Assembly: GCF_014859555.1 (NCBI RefSeq)
Contig: NZ_JACUTY010000012.1
Coordinates: 1-44,312 of the forward strand
DNA from: Thiomicrospira sp.
GTDB taxonomy: Bacteria; Pseudomonadota; Gammaproteobacteria; Thiomicrospirales; Thiomicrospiraceae
Direction of reading: 5' to 3'
DNA length: 44,312 bases
Part shown: one piece after another, positions 24,770 to 41,206 of the stretch
Numbering within the stretch: position 1 is the first letter of the stretch
How the letters are laid out: every line of letters starts with the position of its first letter
Program-made: the position numbers and the translations under genes
Notes under the pieces: generated by a model
What the model was told of the DNA's origin: nothing
The model's input: the letters and a program-made list of their open reading frames with translations, nothing else
Database searches by the model: none

Positions 24770-26293
24770 TTAGTGTCCTTGATTATGTAAACCAATGGTT
24801 TCTGGTGCATTGTTTTTTTTGTTTTCTTTTGCGCCATCGTTACGAGCGTTGGCAATACTTTCTAAATAGGCTTCAGAAATATCACCCGTGACGTATTCGC
24901 CGCTAAAACAAGAGGTATCAAAACAGGATATCTGCTTACTGCCGACACCCACCGCTTCAACCAAATCCGATAGGTCTTGATAAATCAGTTTATCGGCTCC
25001 AATAAAAGCCGCCACCTCTTCTTCAGTTCGGTTACTCGCAACCAGTTCTGTGGCGGATGGCATATCAATACCGTACACATAAGGATATCTTACAGGTGGC
25101 GCAGCAGAGGCAAAATAAACTTTGTTTGCACCGGCTTCACGAGCCATTTGCACAATTTCACCCGAGGTTGTACCACGTACAATCGAGTCATCAACCAGTA
25201 ATACGTTTTTGCCTTCAAACTCCAAACCAATAGCATTGAGTTTTTGACGTACCGATTTTTTACGCTGAGTTTGTCCCGGCATAATAAAGGTACGACCGAT
25301 GTAGCGGTTTTTTATAAAACCTTCACGATAAGGCAATTTGAGTTTTTCGGCCAACTGTAAGGCGGCCGTTCGGCTGGTATCTGGAATTGGCATCACCACA
25401 TCAATATCGTAATCGGCCCAAACACGCTGAATTTTTTCGGCCAGTTTTTCACCCATACGTAAACGTGACTTATAGACTGAAATATCATCAATCATAGAAT
25501 CTGGACGCGCAAAATAAACAAACTCGAAAATACAGGGCGAATATTTAGGGTTGTCGTGACACTGTTCAAAATAAATTTCGCCACTTTCCATCACCACCAC
25601 CGCTTCGCCCGGAGCTAAATCTCGATAGTGTTTAAAACCCAGCCCATCTAAAGCCACGCTTTCTGAAGCCACAATATAATCGATGCCACCTTTAGGGTTG
25701 CTACGCTGACCAACGATAATCGGGCGCAGAGCAAACGGATCGCGAAACGCTAACATACCAACACCGGAAACCAAACCTATGGCGGCATAGCCACCTCGCA
25801 CACGTTTGTGCAATCGACGTATCGCGCTGAAAATATCGTGTTGATCTACAAACAACTTCTGCTGTTTCATCAACTCGTGAGCAAATACGTTCAACAACAC
25901 TTCAGAATCAGAATTGGTGTTGAGATGACGTTGATCTTGTTGGTAAATTTCCTGGCTTAACTGTTCTGCATTAGTTAAGTTACCGTTGTGCCCCATCACG
26001 ATGCCATAGGGTGAGTTCACATAAAACGGTTGCGCTTCGGAACTAGATGAAGAGCCTGCGGTTGGATAACGTACATGACCAATACCTGTTGAGCCATGCA
26101 AATCACGCATATGACGAGTATGAAACACGTCCTTAACTAACCCATTATCTTTGCGTTGGAAAAACCGCCCGTTGTCATGGGTTACAATTCCCGCAGCATC
26201 CTGCCCACGATGCTGCAAAATAGTTAACGCATCATAGAGCTCTTGATTAACCGGTTCACTACTCGCCGAGACAATTCCGACAATACCACACAT
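24770..26293 (-). CDS. purF: Amidophosphoribosyltransferase
   Basis: The first committed enzyme of purine synthesis transfers glutamine-derived ammonia to PRPP. The glutaminase nucleophile is the Cys right after the start (MCGIVGIV). This fixes the start at ATG 26293, because the Cys must become the N-terminus, and excludes the GTG at 26305. Other motifs are LQHRGQDAAGI, NGNLTNA, the PRPP loop VLLVDDSIVRGTTSGEIV (about 360-378) and the tail region CFDTSCFSGEYVTGDI. The usual upstream neighbour cvpA is missing; a terminator-like hairpin lies upstream instead. Confidence 0.97.
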   Translation of the reverse strand: MCGIVGIVSASSEPVNQELYDALTILQHRGQDAAGIVTHDNGRFFQRKDNGLVKDVFHTRHMRDLHGSTGIGHVRYPTAGSSSSSEAQPFYVNSPYGIVMGHNGNLTNAEQLSQEIYQQDQRHLNTNSDSEVLLNVFAHELMKQQKLFVDQHDIFSAIRRLHKRVRGGYAAIGLVSGVGMLAFRDPFALRPIIVGQRSNPKGGIDYIVASESVALDGLGFKHYRDLAPGEAVVVMESGEIYFEQCHDNPKYSPCIFEFVYFARPDSMIDDISVYKSRLRMGEKLAEKIQRVWADYDIDVVMPIPDTSRTAALQLAEKLKLPYREGFIKNRYIGRTFIMPGQTQRKKSVRQKLNAIGLEFEGKNVLLVDDSIVRGTTSGEIVQMAREAGANKVYFASAAPPVRYPYVYGIDMPSATELVASNRTEEEVAAFIGADKLIYQDLSDLVEAVGVGSKQISCFDTSCFSGEYVTGDISEAYLESIANARNDGAKENKKNNAPETIGLHNQGH

Positions 26294-31256: not shown

Positions 31257-31880
31257 TTACAGGGTAGCCTGAATAAAGTCGGCTATTTTTTGAGCCGATT
31301 TTATGCCTTTTTTTATCTCAACGCCGCCACTGACATCCAGTGCCCAAATATTTGGGATACCCAACGCGGCTTTAACATTTTCAGGCGTTAAACCACCTGC
31401 CAATATAAGGGGTTTGACCGAATCCTTAGGGAACAATTTCCAATTAAAAACCTCTCCCGTCCCCCCTGGCACGCCAGGCTTGTATGTGTCGAGCAATAAA
31501 GCTTGAGCGTCTTTGTAAGTCTCCGCAAAGTGCATCACATCCGTATCGGCTTGCATCGCCACCGCTTTGATGTAGGGCCGAGAAAAACGGCCACAAAACT
31601 CAGCCAGCTCATTTCCATGAAATTGCAATAAATCTACTTTAACTTCATTAATAACCTGCTCAACCAATAACGCGTCGGCATTCACAAATAAAGCGGTAGT
31701 TGTCACAAAAGCCGGTAAATTTTGAACAATGAGTTTAGCTTGCTCAACGGTCACCGATCTGGGACTGGGTTCATAGAAAACCAAACCAATCGCATCGGCT
31801 CCGGCGCAAGCCGCCGCTAGGGCATCTTCTGGACGTGTGATACCGCACACTTTTACCCTGACACGTTTCATTATTGCCAT
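31257..31880 (-). CDS. trpF: Phosphoribosylanthranilate isomerase
   Basis: This 207-residue TIM-barrel enzyme performs the Amadori rearrangement of tryptophan synthesis. General base Cys12 lies in VKVCGITRPEDA. The general-acid Asp is in LLDTYKPG-type context, and the closing segment ALDVSGGVE is present. ATG 31880 has GAGG upstream and overlaps truA by 10 bases. ATG 31871, overlapping the truA stop as TAATG, is the alternative start. The gene is separate from trpC, as in Pseudomonas. Confidence 0.96.
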   Translation of the reverse strand: MAIMKRVRVKVCGITRPEDALAAACAGADAIGLVFYEPSPRSVTVEQAKLIVQNLPAFVTTTALFVNADALLVEQVINEVKVDLLQFHGNELAEFCGRFSRPYIKAVAMQADTDVMHFAETYKDAQALLLDTYKPGVPGGTGEVFNWKLFPKDSVKPLILAGGLTPENVKAALGIPNIWALDVSGGVEIKKGIKSAQKIADFIQATL

Positions 31881-32653
31881 AAAACCTCATTCAACGAAGC
31901 CTGCGGTATCGCAAACTCTTGTGGGTAAAATGCGTTGACAAAATATAGGCCGGTAGCCGGTGCGGTTATTGTCGCTTTGGTTCTGTCTTGCAACACTAAT
32001 AAGTCTGCCACCCATTCAACTGGCGCGTCAACTCTTCCAACTTGCATCAAAGTTCCGGCAATGTTTCGCACCATGTGATGCAAAAAAGCATTGGCTTTTA
32101 TGTCTATAAAAACAAAATCACCCCGCCGTGTTACCTTCACAAAATCAATCTCTCGGCGTGCGTGGCTAGCTTGGCATTGAGCGGCTCTAAAAGATGAAAA
32201 ATCAAACTCACCCACCAAAGCTTGAGCCGCCTGGTGCATAAGGGTTTCATCTAAAGGTTTGCGCTCCCAGGTGACCCGATCACTTAATACCGCACTGCGA
32301 ACAGGCCGATTAAAGATAACATATCGATACTGGCGCGCAAATGCACTAAACCGTGCATGAAAATCCTTGCCAACCCGTTTCACCCAGCTAATCCGAATAT
32401 CGGCTGGCAAATGTGTATTCACGCCTTCTAGCCAAGATCTTTCAGATCGCTCAACAGGTGTTTCAAAATGAATCACCTGCCCTATCGCATTCACACCCGT
32501 ATCCGTCCGACCCGCACATACAACTTCAATCGATTCCGCCGCAATCCGACTCAGTGCTCGCTCTACAAAAGCCTGAACTGAATCACAATGATGTTGACGC
32601 TGCCAACCACAGTAGTGTTTCCCTAAATACTCGACACCCAACGCCCACTTCAT
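31871..32653 (-). CDS. truA: tRNA pseudouridine(38-40) synthase TruA
   Basis: This 260-residue enzyme makes pseudouridine in the tRNA anticodon arm. Catalytic Asp51 lies in CAGRTDTGVNAIGQVIHF. Other motifs are the N-terminal GVEYLGKHYCGWQRQ and FLHHMVRNIAGTLMQVG. It lies 8 bases after asd. In many gammaproteobacteria fimV sits between the two, but here there is no room for it. Confidence 0.97.
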   Translation of the reverse strand: MKWALGVEYLGKHYCGWQRQHHCDSVQAFVERALSRIAAESIEVVCAGRTDTGVNAIGQVIHFETPVERSERSWLEGVNTHLPADIRISWVKRVGKDFHARFSAFARQYRYVIFNRPVRSAVLSDRVTWERKPLDETLMHQAAQALVGEFDFSSFRAAQCQASHARREIDFVKVTRRGDFVFIDIKANAFLHHMVRNIAGTLMQVGRVDAPVEWVADLLVLQDRTKATITAPATGLYFVNAFYPQEFAIPQASLNEVLWQ

Positions 32654-32661
32654 TTATGAAA

Positions 32662-33681
32662 CTACAAGTATTTTTCGATCAATACTTCAGCAATTTGCAC
32701 GGTATTGGTCGCCGCACCTTTACGCACATTATCGGCAACAACCCATAGATTCAAACCACATTCAACCGTAATATCTTCACGAATACGACCAACATATACT
32801 GGATTAGTATCAGCCGCATCCGATACGGCCGTCGGGTAACCACCATCCACATGTTCATCAATCACCACCAGGCCTGGTGATTTCTGCAATAACTCACGTG
32901 CTTGCTGAGCTGTAATTTTTTGTTTTGTTTCGATATGAATGGCTTCACTGTGACCAAAGAAAACAGGGACTCGAACCGCAGTTGGGTTGACTTTAATAGA
33001 CTCGTCACCAAAAATCTTTTTGGTTTCCCAAACCATTTTCATTTCTTCTTTGGTATAGCCGTTTTCCATAAACACATCAATTTGTGGAATACAGTTAAAC
33101 GCAATTTGCTTCGGATAAACTTCAATTTCAACTGGCTTAAGATTCATAATGTCAGCTGTTTGCTTAGCCAACTCTTCAATCGCTTCTTTACCCGTTCCTG
33201 ATACCGCTTGATAGGTAGCCACGTTAATGCGATCAATGCCCACGGCATCATAAATCGGCTTTAGAGCCACCATCATTTGAATGGTTGAGCAATTTGGATT
33301 CGCAATTATGCCACGCTTTTTATAACCGGCAATCGCATCAGGGTTCACTTCAGGTACGACTAGAGGGATATCGTCGTCATAACGAAATTGTGAGGTATTA
33401 TCTACCACAACACATCCTGCTGCAGCGGCTTTCGGGGCATAAATAGCAGACACACTTGCACCGGGTGAAAATAACCCAATCTGAGCTTTTGAGAAATCAA
33501 ATGTCTCCAGGTCTAATACCTCAACCCACTCACCTTTGAATTCAATTTTTTTGCCTGCAGAGCGACTGCTTGCCAGAAGGTACAGGTTTCCTATCGGAAA
33601 ATCACGCTCCTCTAGTACTTTTAAAATCGTCTCACCTACGGCACCGGTGGCGCCAACTACTGCGACATCAAATTTTCTCAT
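32662..33681 (-). CDS. asd: Aspartate-semialdehyde dehydrogenase
   Basis: This 339-residue NADP enzyme reduces aspartyl phosphate and supplies lysine/diaminopimelate, threonine and methionine. It has the Rossmann loop VVGATGAVGETIL (8-20), nucleophile Cys131 in NPNCSTIQMM, the VSGTGKEAIEEL segment and the substrate His in RVPVFFGHSEAIH. A palindrome copy at 32867-32878 encodes Ser-Pro-Gly-Leu-Val-Val. It lies between the bactofilin gene and truA. Confidence 0.97.
   Translation of the reverse strand: MRKFDVAVVGATGAVGETILKVLEERDFPIGNLYLLASSRSAGKKIEFKGEWVEVLDLETFDFSKAQIGLFSPGASVSAIYAPKAAAAGCVVVDNTSQFRYDDDIPLVVPEVNPDAIAGYKKRGIIANPNCSTIQMMVALKPIYDAVGIDRINVATYQAVSGTGKEAIEELAKQTADIMNLKPVEIEVYPKQIAFNCIPQIDVFMENGYTKEEMKMVWETKKIFGDESIKVNPTAVRVPVFFGHSEAIHIETKQKITAQQARELLQKSPGLVVIDEHVDGGYPTAVSDAADTNPVYVGRIREDITVECGLNLWVVADNVRKGAATNTVQIAEVLIEKYL
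32867..32878. repeat. ACCAGGCCTGGT palindrome in asd
   Basis: Exact 12-bp copy, read as Pro-Gly-Leu-Val in asd. Flanks extend the dyad to TCACCAGGCCTGGTGA. Confidence 0.85.
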
Positions 33682-33715: not shown

Positions 33716-34192
33716 TTATGCTTTTTTCTCGTCTAAATCCGACTCTTCATCTTTGTTGGAATCCGATTCCTGACCAAACTTTGGCCTCTCAATTTGCGCC
33801 GGTTTTTCGTCTTCAACACCTACGATAATACCGCTTTCACTTAACTCTCGGCTTTGGCCAATAAATTTGCCGCCGGTTTCAATAGTTAATTCGCCACTAA
33901 TTAACTCGCCGACTAACTTGCCCGTTTCTAATATTTCAATACGTTCACAAGCTACTTTACCTTCTAATTTTCCACTTAGAAAAATTGAACGCGCCTTAAT
34001 TAAACCATTCAAACTGCCGTTCTGGCCAATTGAAATATCGTAACTGGTTTCAACAATACCGTCGATGTGGCCATCAATATGCAGCGCTCCCTGCAAATCG
34101 ACAATTTCACCGTTTACTGAACATCCCTCAGCAATAATTGTTTTTCCACCTTCTCGACTTGGTTTCTGATCGCCTGACTTAAAGATCCCCAT
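33716..34192 (-). CDS. Bactofilin-family cytoskeletal protein
   Basis: This 158-residue protein has a short disordered N-terminus, a central DUF583/bactofilin beta-helix (about 20-120) with regularly spaced Gly-Ile/Leu turns (IDGHIDGIVETSYDISIG, LSGKLEGKVACERIEIL), and an acidic Asp/Glu/Lys C-terminal tail. Bactofilins polymerise without nucleotide and organise local cell-wall synthesis or cell shape. The N-terminal 26 codons overlap the end of the M23 peptidase gene by 79 bases. Bactofilin/M23 pairs are known to act together on the wall (Helicobacter, Caulobacter), and the same partnership is inferred here. Confidence 0.9.
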   Translation of the reverse strand: MGIFKSGDQKPSREGGKTIIAEGCSVNGEIVDLQGALHIDGHIDGIVETSYDISIGQNGSLNGLIKARSIFLSGKLEGKVACERIEILETGKLVGELISGELTIETGGKFIGQSRELSESGIIVGVEDEKPAQIERPKFGQESDSNKDEESDLDEKKA

Positions 34193-35070
34193 GGTATACC
34201 CTCTACTTTATCAAAAATACTATCGTAATCTTCCAACCCCCACTGCACAAACGGTGCGGGATTTAATTTACGCTGAACAAAATTTACTTCATAGTGTAGG
34301 TGAGGTCCAGTAGAAACGCCGGTAGATCCAACGCCCCCAATTAAGTCACCCTTATTAACAAACTGGCCTGTTTTGACATTGAGTGTATGCAAATGACCAT
34401 AAAAGGTTTTAAACCCATAAGCATGACTCAAAATGATGAGGTTGCCATAACCACTACTGCGATGATACCCAGCATATTCAACAACGGCATCGGCCGTTGC
34501 TAACACCGGTGCACCTCGTTCACCACGGTAGTCAATACCGTAATGAAATTCACGCGTGCCTCTAACCGGGTGGGTTCGCCAACCATAGCCACTGGTTACC
34601 CCTCTAAACACGCCTACAGGGCGTCCATTTGGAATATGATCCAGCATAATTTGCTTTTCAAGCGTGGTTAACTGAGTCAATTTAACTCGCTCAATGATTG
34701 GCGAATCTAGTTCGGGCTGTACACCAATCAACTCTTCTAAGCCTTGCAATGTCTGGTCTAAAAACCCGACTTGCTTGATCTTTTCTTCGAGCTCATTAAC
34801 CAGCAGTGCTTTTTCCTCAACCAGATTAGAGTACTCATTTTGGCGTTCGTCAAGCGCCCTTAAAAAAGACATTTCAGCTTGGCGTTTTAACGTCTGAATT
34901 TCTTCGACTTCTTTATTTAGCCACCAAATAGAACCCGCCCCACCGGTAACCACTAAGAAAAAGACGATCAGCAACACCCAGACAAACTTTTTAACAAACT
35001 GACTGAACGAGTAATGACGTGCACCGTGCACATCCGTTATCGTAATTGTAAAATGCTGTCTAGAAGACAT
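34114..35070 (-). CDS. Membrane-anchored M23 family peptidase
   Basis: This 318-residue protein has a cytoplasmic N-terminus, one transmembrane helix (about 28-50) and a periplasmic coiled coil (about 53-115). The LytM/M23 domain (about 150-275) has all zinc and catalytic residues: His176 and Asp180 in HYGID, and His257 and His259 in GPHLHYE. An active DD-endopeptidase is therefore expected. The C-terminal 26 codons overlap the bactofilin gene. It lies 3 bases after leuB, unusual company for a wall hydrolase, and may be expressed with the leucine genes. Confidence 0.92.
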   Translation of the reverse strand: MSSRQHFTITITDVHGARHYSFSQFVKKFVWVLLIVFFLVVTGGAGSIWWLNKEVEEIQTLKRQAEMSFLRALDERQNEYSNLVEEKALLVNELEEKIKQVGFLDQTLQGLEELIGVQPELDSPIIERVKLTQLTTLEKQIMLDHIPNGRPVGVFRGVTSGYGWRTHPVRGTREFHYGIDYRGERGAPVLATADAVVEYAGYHRSSGYGNLIILSHAYGFKTFYGHLHTLNVKTGQFVNKGDLIGGVGSTGVSTGPHLHYEVNFVQRKLNPAPFVQWGLEDYDSIFDKVEGIPWGSLSQAIRNQVEKVEKQLLLRDVQ

Positions 35071-35073
35071 CTA

Positions 35074-36150
35074 TTATCCTAAGGCCTTAACAACCGCTGA
35101 TCCCATCTCTGATGTAGATACTTTCTGCATACCTTTCGAATAGATATCACCAGTTCTGAGTCCTTGATCTAAGACTTTACTTACCGCCTGCTCAATCTTA
35201 ATCGCTAAATCTTCACGCCCCAAGCTGTATCGCAACATCATTGCGGCAGACAAGATAGTTGCCAATGGGTTAGCCAGGTTTTGCCCCGCAATGTCTGGTG
35301 CAGAGCCATGACTTGGCTCGTACATGCCTTTGTTGTTTGCATCTAATGACGCGGAAGGTAACATGCCGATTGAACCAGTCAGCATAGACGCTTCGTCTGA
35401 CAAAATATCACCAAACATATTACCGGTAACAATCACATCAAACTGCTTCGGATTACGCACCAGCTGCATAGCGGCATTATCAACATACATATGTGACAGC
35501 TCAACGTCTGGATATTGCTGAGCTAAGTCCGTCATCACCTCACGCCATAACTCCGTCACCTCTAGTACGTTAGCTTTATCGACAGAACATACCTTTTTAT
35601 TGCGTTTCATCGCCGCTTGAAATGCTACGTGCCCAATACGCTCGATTTCTGACTCTGAATACACATAGGTGTTGTACCCCTGACGTTCACCATTTTCTAG
35701 CGTACGGATACCACGTGGTTGACCAAAATAAATCCCGCCCGTTAACTCCCGAACGATCAAAATATCTAAACCGGACACCACTTCGGGCTTAAGTGAAGAA
35801 GCATCCGCTAGCTGTGGGTATAAAAACGCTGGACGCAAGTTAGCAAACAACCCCAGCCCTGAACGTAAACCTAACAAGCCTTTTTCAGGGCGCACAGAAA
35901 TATCAAGTGTTTCCCACTTATAACCGCCGACCGCACCAAGCAGAATGGCGTCAACATCACGCGCCATCTGCATTGTTTCTTCTGGCAAAGGATGGCCGCT
36001 GACATCATAAGCCGCGCCCCCTACTAGACCACTAACCATGTCAATATCTAAACCATGATTCGCTTTAAGTGCTTCCAAAACATTGACCGCTTCTGCAACG
36101 ATTTCTGGGCCAATACCATCACCTGGCAATAACAATACTTTTTGTGTCAT
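35074..36150 (-). CDS. leuB: 3-isopropylmalate dehydrogenase
   Basis: This 358-residue NAD enzyme oxidises and decarboxylates 3-isopropylmalate in leucine synthesis. It has the N-terminal [15 protein letters not shown], the Arg-rich substrate segment [15 protein letters not shown], metal-binding aspartates in the [22 protein letters not shown] region, and [13 protein letters not shown] for cofactor binding. It lies 24 bases after leuD. Confidence 0.98.
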
Positions 36151-36174: not shown

Positions 36175-36819
36175 TTATGCGAACAACCACGGTGTTTTTT
36201 CACGCATTTTTTGCTCGTATGCCTTTATGTTTTCTGCATGCACTAAGGTTAAGCCAATATCATCCAAGCCATTTAATAAACAATGACGTCTAAAGGCATC
36301 AACTTCAAAGTCGATAACCTGTCCAGCTGGCGTCACAATCTGCTGCTGTTCTAAATCGACCGTTAGCTCATATCCTTCTTTAGACTCAACCGCTTTAAAC
36401 AAATCATCTACTTGCTTTTCAGGCAGAGGAATCGGCAAGATGCCATTTTTAAAACAATTATTGAAAAATATATCTGCAAAGCTGGGCGCAATTACGACAT
36501 CAAAGCCGTAATCCTTTAAAGCCCAAGGCGCATGTTCACGGCTTGAACCACAACCAAAATTTTCTCGTGCCAATAAAATTTTAGCGCTTTGATAACGTGG
36601 CTGGTTCAACACAAAATCTGGATTTAGCGGACGCTGCGAGCTATCCTCTCCGGGTTGCCCCACATCTAAGTAACGCCATTCGTCAAACAGGTTAGGCCCA
36701 AATCCGGTGCGTTTAATTGACTTCAAGAATTGTTTAGGAATAATCGCATCCGTATCGACATTTGAGCGATCCAATGGTGCAACAATAGCTGTTAGCTTAG
36801 TGAATTGATTCATACTCAT
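36175..36819 (-). CDS. leuD: 3-isopropylmalate dehydratase small subunit
   Basis: This 214-residue swivel-domain subunit of isopropylmalate isomerase has [21 protein letters not shown] (in part) near the N-terminus and the [16 protein letters not shown] motif at about 88-103. It partners LeuC. The start overlaps the leuC stop as ATGA. A second ATG two codons downstream (36813) is possible. Confidence 0.97.
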
Positions 36820-38243
36820 AACGACACTCCCATCATTTCGCGCACATCCACAAAATGACCCGCTACCGCTGCAGCGGCCGCCATTTGTGGACTAACTAAG
36901 TGAGTACGTCCACCGGCACCTTGACGCCCTTCAAAGTTACGATTCGAAGTAGAGGCACAATGCTTCTGCGGAGGCAAACGATCAGCATTCATCGCTAGAC
37001 ACATTGAGCAACCCGGATTACGCCACTCAAATCCGGCTTCAATAAAGATCTTATCCAAGCCTTCAGCTTCAGCCTGCTGCTTAACTCTGCCCGATCCAGG
37101 CACCACCAAGGCTTGCTCAATATTAGGTGAAACTTTACGGCCTTTTACGATATTCGCCGCAGCTCGCAAATCTTCCATACGCGAGTTAGTACATGAACCA
37201 ATAAATACATAATCTATTGCGATATCTGTAATCGCCATATTAGGTTTTAGCCCCATGTAGTCAAGTGCGCGTCTAATGCCACCAGCCTTAACAGGGTCGG
37301 CTTCTTTGGCCGGGTCAGGTACCACGGAATTAACACTGGCTACCATTTCAGGAGATGTTCCCCAGCTCACCTGAGGCTCAATATTTGAGCCATCCAGTTC
37401 AATCACCTTGTCAAAAACCGCATCCAAATCAGATTTAAAATTTGACCAATAAGCCACCGCCGCATCCCAATATTCTTCTTTAGGGGCAAAATGTCGACCT
37501 TTTACATAATCTATTGTTTTGTCATCTACCGCCACCAGGCCTGCTCTTGCGCCAGCTTCAATCGCCATATTACAAACCGTCATACGTCCTTCAACCGACA
37601 TATCTCGCATGACCTGACCACCAAATTCAATTGCACAACCATTACCGCCAGCTGTACCAATCTTACCTATAATAGCTAACACCACGTCTTTAGGTCCAAC
37701 ACCTGGTTTTAATACACCGTCGACCCTAACCAACATGTTTTTCATTTTCTTTTGAATTAAGCACTGGGTCGCTAATACATGCTCGACTTCAGACGTACCA
37801 ATGCCATGCGCCAATGCACCTAAAGCACCATGGGTTGATGTATGAGAATCGCCACACACCACAGTCATACCTGGTAAGGTGGCGCCAGATTCAGGGCCGA
37901 CAACATGCACGATCCCTTGGCGAACATCGCCCATGCCATATTCAGTAATGCCGAATTCTTTAGTATTGGTTCCCAAAGTTTGAACTTGAATACGCGAGAT
38001 CGGATCTTTAATGCTCGACACCCCACCTGTCAGCTCAGTAGTTGGCACGTTATGATCGGGGGTAGCCAGGTTTGCTGAAACACGCCACGGCTTACGCTTC
38101 GCTAAACGCAGGCCTTCAAAAGCTTGAGGCGAAGTTACTTCATGCAATAATTGCCGATCAATATAGATCAAGGCGGTACCGTCTTCTTCCTGACGAACTA
38201 CATGCGCATCCCACAACTTGTCATAGAGCGTTTTTGCTAACAT
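36816..38243 (-). CDS. leuC: 3-isopropylmalate dehydratase large subunit
   Basis: This 475-residue aconitase-like subunit holds a [4Fe-4S] cluster. Ligands are visible in [16 protein letters not shown] (one Cys) and [11 protein letters not shown] (two Cys). Also present are [22 protein letters not shown] and TPDHNVPTT at the N-terminus. It is the first gene of the long minus-strand array. A one-mismatch palindrome copy lies at 37534-37545. Confidence 0.98.
37534..37545. repeat. Near-exact palindrome copy (ACCAGGCCTGCT) in leuC
   Basis: Same single substitution as the metZ near-copy at 23808. Read as Ala-Gly-Leu-Val on the minus strand. Confidence 0.6.
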
Positions 38244-39643: not shown

Positions 39644-40339
39644 CTATAATAAATTGCCAGTCTTATCAATCATAATAATGACCCGGCGATTCAATGAGCG
39701 TCCGTAGGGCGTATCATTAGGCGCAACGGCATCGTTATCAGCACGCCCCTCAATGTAAACCAATTCCCGATTAACCCCCATATAAATAAAGGTTCGCCCT
39801 ACAGTGGCCGCACGCGAAGCCGATAACTCCCAGTTTGACGGGTATTGCAATGTATTAATAGGTACACTGTCTGTATAACCTGTAATACGAATAGTCTGAC
39901 CACGCCCCGCCAAAGTTTCGCCAAGTAACTCCAATTGCAAGCGAGTTCGGTCGTTGATCGTGGCGCGCCCACTTTCAAAAAAGCTGTCAGATTTCAAGGT
40001 TATCTTCGTATATTCAGGCGTATCTTCAATTTCAATATCTTTTACATTTACTTGACTCATCGCCCGCTGAATTTCTAGTGTAGTCGCTGGTGGCTTCAGG
40101 TCTAACGGATTCAACTCGCTGCCACGGATACTTGCGTCTTGCTCCACCTCTTTAGAAGATTTATCGCCCAACATTGACTGTACAAATGCATCCCTATCAC
40201 CTGGGTCAACAACCGAAACTAGCCACATCACCAAGAAAAAAACCATCAAAACGGTCATTAAATCGGCTAATGCAATCTTCCAAGAACCGCCATGGGCCCC
40301 ACCACCTTCATCGTGCCCTCCACCGCGACGACGAGACAT
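39644..40339 (-). CDS. motB: Flagellar motor stator protein MotB
   Basis: This 231-residue stator subunit has a basic, Gly-rich N-terminus and one transmembrane helix (about 22-43) with the proton-binding Asp26 in ALADLMTVLMVFFLVMWL. A plug/linker and an OmpA-like peptidoglycan-binding domain (about 110-228) follow, with ITGYTDSVPIN and NWELSASRAATVGR. It is short for MotB (E. coli 308), with a reduced linker. It lies 24 bases after motA. No other flagellar genes are in the window. Confidence 0.93.
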   Translation of the reverse strand: MSRRRGGGHDEGGGAHGGSWKIALADLMTVLMVFFLVMWLVSVVDPGDRDAFVQSMLGDKSSKEVEQDASIRGSELNPLDLKPPATTLEIQRAMSQVNVKDIEIEDTPEYTKITLKSDSFFESGRATINDRTRLQLELLGETLAGRGQTIRITGYTDSVPINTLQYPSNWELSASRAATVGRTFIYMGVNRELVYIEGRADNDAVAPNDTPYGRSLNRRVIIMIDKTGNLL

Positions 40340-40363
40340 ATTAAACTCCCTGCCTAGTATTCA

Positions 40364-41206
40364 TTAATTGCTCCGCGGAATATCATATTCTGGCGGAATA
40401 CGTTGACGCGCAACTTCAACCGCAAGGTTTGGCGATACACCATTTGCATAAGCGGCAATAAAAGCCGCGGTCATTTCGAGTAATGAACGATCCTGTCGAT
40501 TCATTATTTCCAATGCATGAGTAAAAGGAGCCACCAGTGCAAAGGCAAAAAAGATACCTGCCAAGGTACCAACTAAAGCCGCGCCCACAGATTGGCCGAT
40601 TAGAGCCACATCCATTTCACCACCCAGCAATGTCATTGTTAAAATTACGCCCATAATCGCCGCCACAATACCAAACCCGGGTAACCAGTCTGCGATTTTG
40701 CCGGTAGCTTTGGGTAATTCCATCATCGAATTATAAATACCATCAATTTGATCCAATAAATGATCTTCAAAATGCTGGCTTTGCGGTGGGTTCAACAACA
40801 AATAACTAAAATTATCGACAATGAATTTACGCAGTGCTTTATGCTTCATCACCAATGAATAATGACTGAATATCGGACTGACCCCAGGATTCACAACATG
40901 CTTTTCGAGCGCTAACATGCCACTGGCACGCGCCGTTCTTGCTAACTCCTCAAGCAATCCAATCGTTTCTGCATACAAACGTTTATTAACCTTATCGCCC
41001 GCAAACACACGACCAGCACTCTTAAAAGCTTCAAGCCAAATATACATGGGTGTCGATACCATAAAGGCCCCTATCGCCACACCCAAAATGATGACCAATT
41101 CAGAGGGATGCCAAATTGAAGCTAGGTTTCCACCCATTAACTTAAAGCCGCCAAGAAAGCTTAAAAATATAACTAAGATCCCGAGGGGTTTTGCAAAAAT
41201 ACTCAT
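40364..41206 (-). CDS. motA: Flagellar motor stator protein MotA
   Basis: This 280-residue, four-transmembrane stator subunit forms the ion channel with MotB. It has the family opening ILVIFLSFLGGFKLMGG, the charged cytoplasmic loop (about 75-160) that contacts FliG, LPGFGIVAAIMGVILTM with the conserved Pro near 170-187, and a final helix with LVGTLAGIFFAF. The length and the C-terminal PPEYD tail resemble proton-type MotA. Confidence 0.94.
   Translation of the reverse strand: MSIFAKPLGILVIFLSFLGGFKLMGGNLASIWHPSELVIILGVAIGAFMVSTPMYIWLEAFKSAGRVFAGDKVNKRLYAETIGLLEELARTARASGMLALEKHVVNPGVSPIFSHYSLVMKHKALRKFIVDNFSYLLLNPPQSQHFEDHLLDQIDGIYNSMMELPKATGKIADWLPGFGIVAAIMGVILTMTLLGGEMDVALIGQSVGAALVGTLAGIFFAFALVAPFTHALEIMNRQDRSLLEMTAAFIAAYANGVSPNLAVEVARQRIPPEYDIPRSN

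Follow-up and report, generated by a model that had tools for sequence, protein, structure and literature searches.

A putative Csd1-CcmA-type peptidase-bactofilin gene pair with a long conserved overlap between leuB and asd in Thiomicrospira and its relatives

Background

The closest described relatives of the locus analysed here are csd1 and ccmA of Helicobacter pylori, which encode an M23 peptidase and a bactofilin. In the accessible part of the report on this system, the two genes overlap by 82 nt, each can be deleted and complemented with the expression of the other unaffected, and loss of csd1 or csd7 results in curved rods (PMC9507126). According to the same authors, conservation of overlapping csd1-ccmA genes extends to several Campylobacterota and Pseudomonadota with curved or helical cells (PMC9507126), and the arrangement as such was therefore already known. 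A second system is LmdC-BacA, for which the text available to us reports a 17-bp lmdC-bacA overlap in Hyphomonas neptunium, hairpin mutants of LmdC that lose recruitment by BacA in Rhodospirillum rubrum, and an increase in R. rubrum cell curvature when bacA, lmdC or both are deleted (PMC10945521). The membrane-targeting peptide of BacA is given as MFSKQAKS (PMC12448750).

Long overlaps between genes on the same strand have a poor reputation. Palleja et al. (2008) examined 338 genomes and regarded each of the 715 co-directional overlaps of more than 60 bp as an error; the longest co-directional overlap accepted as genuine in that survey is holD-rimI of enterobacteria, at 32-56 bp (PMC2478687).

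The window examined here, a stretch of 44,312 nucleotides from Thiomicrospira sp. (Thiomicrospiraceae; contig NZ_JACUTY010000012.1), carries an M23 peptidase gene and a bactofilin gene that overlap by 79 nt. A search of the open-access literature returned no paper containing both 'bactofilin' and 'Thiomicrospira', and no experiments on the pair in this family of sulfur-oxidising bacteria were found in the literature.

Gene order and transcription of the locus

The genes of the region lie on the minus strand in the order leuC - leuD - leuB - M23 peptidase - bactofilin - asd - truA - trpF - trpB, the identities of trpF and trpB resting on recognition and position. The features discussed below are as follows.

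36816..38243, minus strand: leuC, named by recognition and position
36175..36819, minus strand: leuD, named by recognition and position
35074..36150, minus strand: leuB, with 3 bases between its end and the M23 start; NCBIfam equivalog cut-off passed
34114..35070, minus strand: Csd1-type M23 peptidase gene, 318 aa, ATG start (ORF, Pfam, profile and Foldseek relatives)
35008..35049, minus strand: M23 N-terminal cytoplasmic beta-hairpin, residues 8-21, a putative bactofilin docking element (model and motif)
34726..35007, minus strand: M23 long helix, residues 22-115, transmembrane segment and coiled coil (model; the split between the two is our estimate)
34258..34548, minus strand: M23 catalytic domain, residues 175-271 (Pfam and alignment)
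34199..34204, minus strand: predicted Shine-Dalgarno-like AGAGGG for the bactofilin, internal to the M23 gene
34189..34191, minus strand: M23 Trp294 codon TGG; the bactofilin ATG starts 1 base upstream
34114..34192, minus strand: dual-coding overlap, 79 nt (M23 C-terminal helix; bactofilin N-terminal tail and first strand)
33716..34192, minus strand: bactofilin (CcmA-type) gene, 158 aa, ATG start (ORF, Pfam, model, Foldseek)
34169..34192, minus strand: bactofilin N-terminal peptide MGIFKSGD, entirely within the overlap, a candidate membrane-targeting sequence by analogy to BacA
33851..34141, minus strand: bactofilin polymerisation domain, residues 18-114, a predicted beta-helix (Pfam and model)
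32662..33681, minus strand: asd, beginning 34 bases past the bactofilin stop; NCBIfam equivalog cut-off passed
31871..32653, minus strand: truA, immediately downstream of asd

The match to the Pfam Bactofilin family scores 73.8 bits (cut-off 27.9) over residues 18-114, and that to Peptidase_M23 scores 109.7 bits (cut-off 28.7) over residues 175-271. The identities of the two genes and their position between leuB and asd, as given in a preliminary description of the locus, thus agree with the reading frames, Pfam and the NCBIfam equivalog cut-offs.

Promoter-like matches in the region are not clearly above the number in shuffled sequence (19 versus 14.0, sd 4.2), and the gene strand holds no promoter-like site scoring above 9 of 12. 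Because the genes are packed and no such site is present, linkage of the leu genes, M23, bactofilin and asd through a single mRNA is likely; co-transcription would then extend from leuC. Terminator-like matches exceed shuffled sequence (12 versus 6.8, sd 2.5), an excess that is of no help to the single-mRNA reading; the six such sites on the gene strand are all within genes.

Structure and family of the two proteins

In its AlphaFold2 model (mean pLDDT 82.9, pTM 0.58), the M23 protein is built of strands at residues 8-13 and 16-21, a helix at 22-115, the catalytic domain and, encoded by the overlap, a helix at the C-terminus (residues 295-317); confidence is low for the N-terminal hairpin (block pLDDT 47, 56, 74). 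The residues of the HxxxD and HxH motifs (H176, D180, H257 and H259), which we take to be zinc ligands as in the M23 family generally, are invariant in an alignment of 33 rows. A Foldseek search with the model returned Csd1/Csd2 entries as its best nine chains, with 5j1l at rank 1 (41% identity), and a profile search likewise placed 5j1l_A best at E 7.4e-61, the first other protein following at 3.7e-36. The molecule name of 5j1l in the PDB is 'ToxR-activated gene (TagE)', the entry title is Csd1-Csd2, and the title of the associated paper gives the source as H. pylori. One scan of a viral contig set found no relative of the window's M23 protein, and a viral origin was rejected.

The bactofilin is predicted to adopt a beta-helix fold, with a core pLDDT above 90 and Foldseek matches to 6rib and 2n3d. 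Residues M1, G2 and F4 are invariant in 31 rows. Resemblance of the N-terminal MGIFKS to the MFSK of BacA is loose only, and MGIFKSGD is a candidate membrane-targeting peptide by analogy.

Two quick trees were built from rows picked by their likeness to the M23 protein, and the trees therefore test grouping rather than frequency. In the M23 tree (50 rows, orphans included) the Csd1-type rows are on one side of a branch with support 96, and in the bactofilin tree (50 rows) the long-overlap bactofilins are on one side of a branch with support 91. Both trees group the window's rows with Campylobacterota and Vibrionaceae rows, and both place the window's family on one side of a branch, with weak supports of 31 (M23) and 37 (bactofilin).

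Comparison with described systems

With the H. pylori genes the window shares a Csd1-type M23 peptidase, a CcmA-type bactofilin, and a long same-strand overlap in the same phase (82 nt published versus 79 nt). The Helicobacter loci sampled here (L104, L105 and L110) also possess the hairpin motif and a bactofilin start locked to a Trp codon. The window differs in having leuB and asd as neighbours and no Csd2-like gene upstream. A second M23 gene lies upstream in the three Helicobacter loci but is absent there from the remaining ten outside pairs, and is therefore taken as a feature of Helicobacter and not as defining for the module; Csd5 is described as Helicobacter-only (PMC9507126). By sequence, predicted fold, tree position and overlap phase, the pair is assigned to the Csd1-CcmA module, which agrees with the suggestion in the preliminary description that scaffold and enzyme form a pair.

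LmdC-BacA resembles the pair in having a membrane-anchored hairpin M23 peptidase beside a bactofilin, and probably works in the same way. It differs in its short overlap in another phase: the two Hyphomonadaceae pairs in our sample overlap by 20 and 26 nt in phase 2 and are on another branch in both trees. A Nitrospirota MAG (L115) that is also outside the Csd1 branch has an early ATG that would create an overlap of 107 or 119 nt in phase 2, the next start leaving a 1-base gap. Another bactofilin of Gammaproteobacteria (L002, L003, L006, L007, L009 and L016; rows trimmed) shares the bactofilin domain and is on a different branch, with no same-strand M23 match within the roughly 3-kb loci examined.

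The overlap is conserved and constrained

In the window, the M23 and bactofilin reading frames share bases 34114-34192 in different frames. The sample of the order comprised 62 genomes, all from one family, and the overlap is found in each of the 57 genomes that have a bactofilin over the cut-off, at lengths of 79-127 nt. Measured lengths, for 57 pairs in 56 genomes (G070 contributing two), are 79 (17 pairs), 91 (19), 97 (2), 100 (17) and 127 nt (2); the 57th genome, G069, has an overlap of 100 nt and was counted beside the measured pairs, its draft M23 gene being frame-broken. Eighteen further pairs came from Campylobacterota, Fusobacteriota, a Methylococcaceae MAG, Vibrionaceae and other gammaproteobacterial families. 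In each of the 57 pairs of the order and the 18 from outside it, the bactofilin begins 1 base before an M23 TGG (Trp) codon; the Trp scored in a pair was, among those matching a loose W motif, the one closest to that start. The overlap is in phase 1 in 75 of 75 pairs. The corresponding residue, W294, does not vary in either of two alignments, one of 33 rows and one of 12. With the bactofilin start fixed, differences in overlap length come from movement of the M23 stop.

Synonymous change is about halved where the frames coincide. Over the 57 pairs, synonymous pair differences in the M23 frame are 0.289 in the overlap (25 columns) versus 0.567 elsewhere (231 columns), and in the bactofilin frame 0.263 (16 columns) versus 0.583 (87 columns); rank tests that take columns as units and ignore relatedness give p 2.4e-7 and 7.8e-7, respectively. 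Both frames of the overlap are therefore very likely under selection. The bactofilin start codon is ATG in 56 and GTG in 1 of the 57 order pairs, and in none do codons 2-17 offer an alternative. Five of the 57 have ATG as codon 30, within the domain and still within the M23 gene, and the sole alternative among codons 2-40 of the window's bactofilin is codon 33. A wrongly called bactofilin start, named in the preliminary description as what would undo its reading of the overlap, is on these sequence data very unlikely, and the 79-base overlap reported there is genuine.

Translation of the bactofilin

Within the M23 gene, the stretch that precedes the bactofilin start is predicted to pair with the 3′ end of the 16S rRNA at a mean energy of -7.27 kcal/mol, versus -2.52 kcal/mol at random M23 positions in the same frame. 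Energies of -4 or lower are reached by 98% of the 57 order pairs (one miss), versus 23% of background positions, and by 16 of 18 bactofilin starts outside the order (two misses). In 54 of 57 order pairs the predicted Shine-Dalgarno match of the bactofilin is better than that of the M23 gene itself; energies at the M23 start of some outside loci were left unused, as the positions there are match edges. These energies are predictions, and may in part reflect M23 codons. A strong private match within the M23 gene argues for independent initiation, which appears likelier than stop-start coupling. By the same predictions scaffold output would probably exceed enzyme output.

Placement between leuB and asd

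Within the order, asd follows the pair, or an M23 gene alone, at 59 of 59 M23 loci, and leuB precedes M23 at 58 of 59, the exception being a contig cut 70 bases before M23. The placement, which the preliminary description proposed to inspect in relatives, is thus kept at these loci. For comparison, 23 genomes of the class were searched for asd; the 20 outside the family gave 15, which were then searched for leuB. Both genes were found in 11 of these, and in 9 of the 11 they are directly adjacent, with 17-90 bases between matches. The leuB-asd junction is hence usual in the class, as the preliminary description had it, and the pair is better called an insertion into that junction than a replacement of it.

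A survey of 369 genomes of the class (E <= 1e-55; no more than 6 candidates were scored in any one genome, which makes the count a lower bound) found a Csd1-type M23 gene in at least 9, four in the window's family and five in others. All five non-family genomes have an overlapping bactofilin (79-94 nt). One of them, G115, which belongs to another order and is the single genome sampled from it, likewise has the pair between leuB and asd; for the other four of the five, as for 13 of 13 outside pairs, no leuB or asd was found in the locus DNA examined. The placement in G115 may reflect common descent with the window's order or a second insertion, a leuB+asd tree and the bactofilin tree being compatible with either.

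The downstream side of asd also differs from that in most of the class. FimV is a polar, wall-binding hub protein. A model of the FimV core matched 17 of 21 other class genomes and had no match in the window's family (36 genomes). Of the 13 genomes in which both fimV and asd were found, 11 have the core downstream of asd at a distance of no more than 1.2 kb, and two have the genes on different contigs. In the window, asd adjoins truA and fimV is absent from that spot, unlike in most other class genomes. That FimV was lost next to the site where a shape module was gained may be coincidence.

Loss of the bactofilin, the hairpin and cell shape

Several lineages appear to have retained the M23 gene and lost its partner. 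G005, a genome of the same genus, has an intact M23 gene that encodes 324 aa, including the catalytic residues; asd starts 93 bases past the stop of this gene with no bactofilin in between, nor is there a bactofilin over the cut-off anywhere else in the genome. A PF04519 match of 22.6 bits, below the cut-off and in a 5058-aa frame, was rejected as a bactofilin. The hidden frame within the end of the M23 gene reads VGFFSSGSASTGSKNGKTIIAEGGRV..., where the sister G007 has MGIFSSSRSSTGSKNGKTIIAEGVRV...; beyond it, short stretches are similar to later portions of the G007 bactofilin gene and to its end. The bactofilin of G005 was therefore probably lost recently, the overlap preserving its N-terminus. 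The old overlap of G005 has 4 unique synonymous changes in 30 codons versus 1 and 1 in two sisters, numbers too few to count, set beside 41, 35 and 46 (G005 and the two sisters) in 291 codons outside it; they lean toward relaxed constraint, as expected after loss of the bactofilin.

In G060, from another genus and 99% complete, no bactofilin match was found in the genome; its M23 protein lacks the hairpin, has a coiled-coil part that aligns poorly, and is on a long branch (1.13 versus a median of 0.2). Two Photobacterium species (L108 and L109) have a Csd1-type M23 without the hairpin, and a search of their genomes (completeness unstated) gave no match to a bactofilin. Bactofilin and hairpin are thus both absent in two lineages. 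In L111, a Magnetococcales MAG, the hairpin scores weakly and no bactofilin exceeds the cut-off, a PF04519 match of 22.6 bits having been rejected. Three further genomes without a bactofilin (G012, G018 and G068) were not counted as losses, being incomplete (85, 95 and 83%): the M23 gene of G018 is cut by the contig end, the M23 ortholog was not found in G012 (a weak paralogue only), and in G068 the ortholog was not found and half of asd is missing. Retention of M23 in the absence of a bactofilin in G005 and G060 indicates that the enzyme is useful without the scaffold.

A hairpin motif trained on bactofilin-bearing rows, with the tested row left out, was found in all 75 M23 proteins that have a bactofilin partner and in 2 of the 5 that do not (Fisher p 1.2e-4, relatedness ignored). 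This count was made on reading frames left untrimmed, with a different choice of training rows, and was preferred after the results were seen. On trimmed rows the counts are 72 of 75 versus 3 of 5 (p 0.03), weaker because three Helicobacter N-termini were trimmed and the hairpin-less L109 falls just above the threshold. As the five bactofilin-less rows represent about four lineages, and one of the two hairpin keepers, L111, scores weakly, the association of bactofilin loss with hairpin loss is suggestive. It fits the accessible account of R. rubrum LmdC, in which hairpin residues are needed for recruitment by BacA (PMC10945521).

G005 is putatively Thiomicrospira (Thioalkalimicrobium) cyclica ALM1, the cells of which are open ring-shaped in the part of the source consulted (PMC4891895). 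Rod-shaped cells are described for a Thiomicrorhabdus strain, as for other members of its genus (PMC10608990), and most genomes of presumed Thiomicrorhabdus carry the pair; the pair alone therefore does not make a curved cell. For the sister T. pelophila, a limited literature search found no statement of cell shape. The ring shape of the bactofilin-less species may, as a hypothesis by analogy, be linked to the loss. Such a link fits the raised curvature of the R. rubrum bacA deletion, and concerns one species in which the M23 gene is retained.

Discussion

The overlap, the dual-frame constraint, the fixed start, the internal Shine-Dalgarno match and the family membership were all computed here, and together we read them as a Csd1-CcmA-type shape module, with welded genes and a scaffold translated by separate internal initiation, a reading that we hold to be quite probable. 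The 2008 verdict on overlaps longer than 60 bp (PMC2478687) is a reason for regarding the overlap as an annotation artefact with the true bactofilin start downstream of the M23 stop. With no start codon in codons 2-17 of any of the 57 pairs, ATG or (once) GTG at the called start, constraint on both frames, one start position in all 75 pairs, and an 82-nt counterpart in H. pylori in which each gene can be removed and restored on its own (PMC9507126, accessible text), that explanation is scarcely credible. Assignment to the alphaproteobacterial LmdC-BacA type would be favoured by the shared domain plan, hairpin and adjacency (PMC10945521, as far as accessible), and a long overlap could exist outside the Csd1 branch, in L115; but the two Hyphomonadaceae pairs and the published 17-bp overlap are in phase 2, as are both possible overlaps of L115, against phase 1 in 75 of 75, and both trees join the window to Campylobacterota and Vibrionaceae rows. 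On phase and trees LmdC-type membership was rejected, and we regard it as highly improbable.

Classical translational coupling, in which ribosomes finishing the M23 gene would re-initiate on the bactofilin, was the reading of the preliminary description, and has in its favour the overlap itself, the packed genes and the closely coupled expression proposed by the authors for H. neptunium lmdC-bacA with its short overlap (PMC10945521, accessible part). A start 79-127 nt before the M23 stop, however, would require the finishing ribosome to travel far backwards, nearly all pairs have a strong Shine-Dalgarno match of their own, and the independent deletion and complementation of csd1 and ccmA in H. 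pylori (PMC9507126, accessible part) also speak against it, so that tight coupling is unlikely; a weaker coupling, through unfolding of the mRNA, may still operate. A further proposal in that description, that proximity to asd ties diaminopimelate supply to wall shaping, is consistent with a place kept across the order and recurring in G115. It is countered by a leuB-asd junction that is usual even without the pair, by the outside pairs and most non-family class pairs, whose examined DNA holds neither gene, and by shared transcription, which would suffice to explain the placement; the proposal comes down to adjacency and seems to us a good deal less probable than coupling.

Under the preferred reading, that of a Csd1-CcmA-type module with internal initiation, the bactofilin would polymerise on the inner face of the membrane by way of its short N-terminal peptide, and the filament would bind the M23 peptidase, itself anchored in the membrane, at its cytoplasmic beta-hairpin, confining DD-endopeptidase action to part of the envelope and so setting curvature. 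The bactofilin start would be built on a conserved M23 Trp codon and served by a strong ribosome-binding site of its own within the M23 gene, such that a single mRNA would yield the enzyme and a separately initiated scaffold, the latter probably in excess. Polymerisation, hairpin binding, endopeptidase activity and the role in shape are known from relatives, and we infer all function in the window's organism from them.

More tentatively, the Csd1-CcmA overlap may have arisen once, long ago, as a dual-coding device, and may have been retained or transmitted as a unit in at least three phyla because its internal start and ribosome-binding site fix the ratio of scaffold to peptidase; after loss of the bactofilin the hairpin would decay later, and T. 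cyclica would represent an early natural deletion, its open rings arising from an unsteered Csd1-type peptidase much as bacA deletion raises curvature in R. rubrum. This broader picture is possible, and we doubt it more than we favour it.

The Csd1-CcmA overlap was known, and the M23-bactofilin pair is by its sequence a further member; the start fixed across phyla, the evidence from constraint and ribosome-binding sites, the order-wide placement between leuB and asd and the staged losses were not met in the literature consulted. Like holD-rimI, the pair is a genuine co-directional overlap, but it is longer and spans phyla, and the set as a whole speaks against equating overlaps of more than 60 bp with misannotation as a general rule. 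It provides a well-supported long co-directional overlap in a class once deemed wholly misannotation, with the start codon in the same place across phyla. Natural losses of the bactofilin at different stages, one in a species named for its rings, would make the effect of a bactofilin on its M23 peptidase testable outside pathogens.

Variation among loci encoding Csd1-type M23 peptidases

Bactofilin genes are not a constant companion of Csd1-type M23 peptidase genes. At the locus of a genome from the same genus (L053, G005, which we take to be Thiomicrospira cyclica), remnants of a lost bactofilin gene are found at positions 2370-2562, and the N-terminal codons of the bactofilin survive in a hidden frame of the M23 gene. 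The genome from another genus of the order (G060) encodes a Csd1-type M23 protein (L089, 1138-2145) that forms a long branch and does not possess the N-terminal cytoplasmic β-hairpin proposed as a bactofilin docking element; a search of this genome for bactofilin gave no match. The hairpin is likewise missing from the Csd1-type M23 proteins of two Photobacterium loci (L108, 3773-4777; L109, 3794-4777), and bactofilin was searched for and not found in the corresponding genomes. Other loci carry a second bactofilin frame or gene. In the gammaproteobacterial genome G139, two consecutive bactofilin frames (L197, 2321-3238) lie downstream of the M23 gene, the first of which overlaps it by 91 nt, and in Propionigenium maris (L099, 3213-3581 and 4819-5232) an extra bactofilin gene is located upstream of the M23-bactofilin pair.

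Other features of the window

An apparent overlap of 86 nt (24770-24855) involves two frames that we take to be an amidophosphoribosyltransferase-like gene and a TTG-started sulfhydrylase-like gene. In contrast to the bactofilin overlap, it is probably an artefact of the ORF rule setting a start too early. Close to the contig start (272-1954), what we recognize as an excisionase-like frame precedes one that resembles a phage-type integrase, and a presumed MotA/MotB-like pair adjoins a parC-like gene (39644-41206).

At the asd-truA junction (32653-32662), 8 bases separate the two genes. The FimV core (TIGR03505) was matched in none of the 36 genomes of the window's family; it is present in 17 of 21 gammaproteobacterial genomes outside that family, mostly directly downstream of asd.
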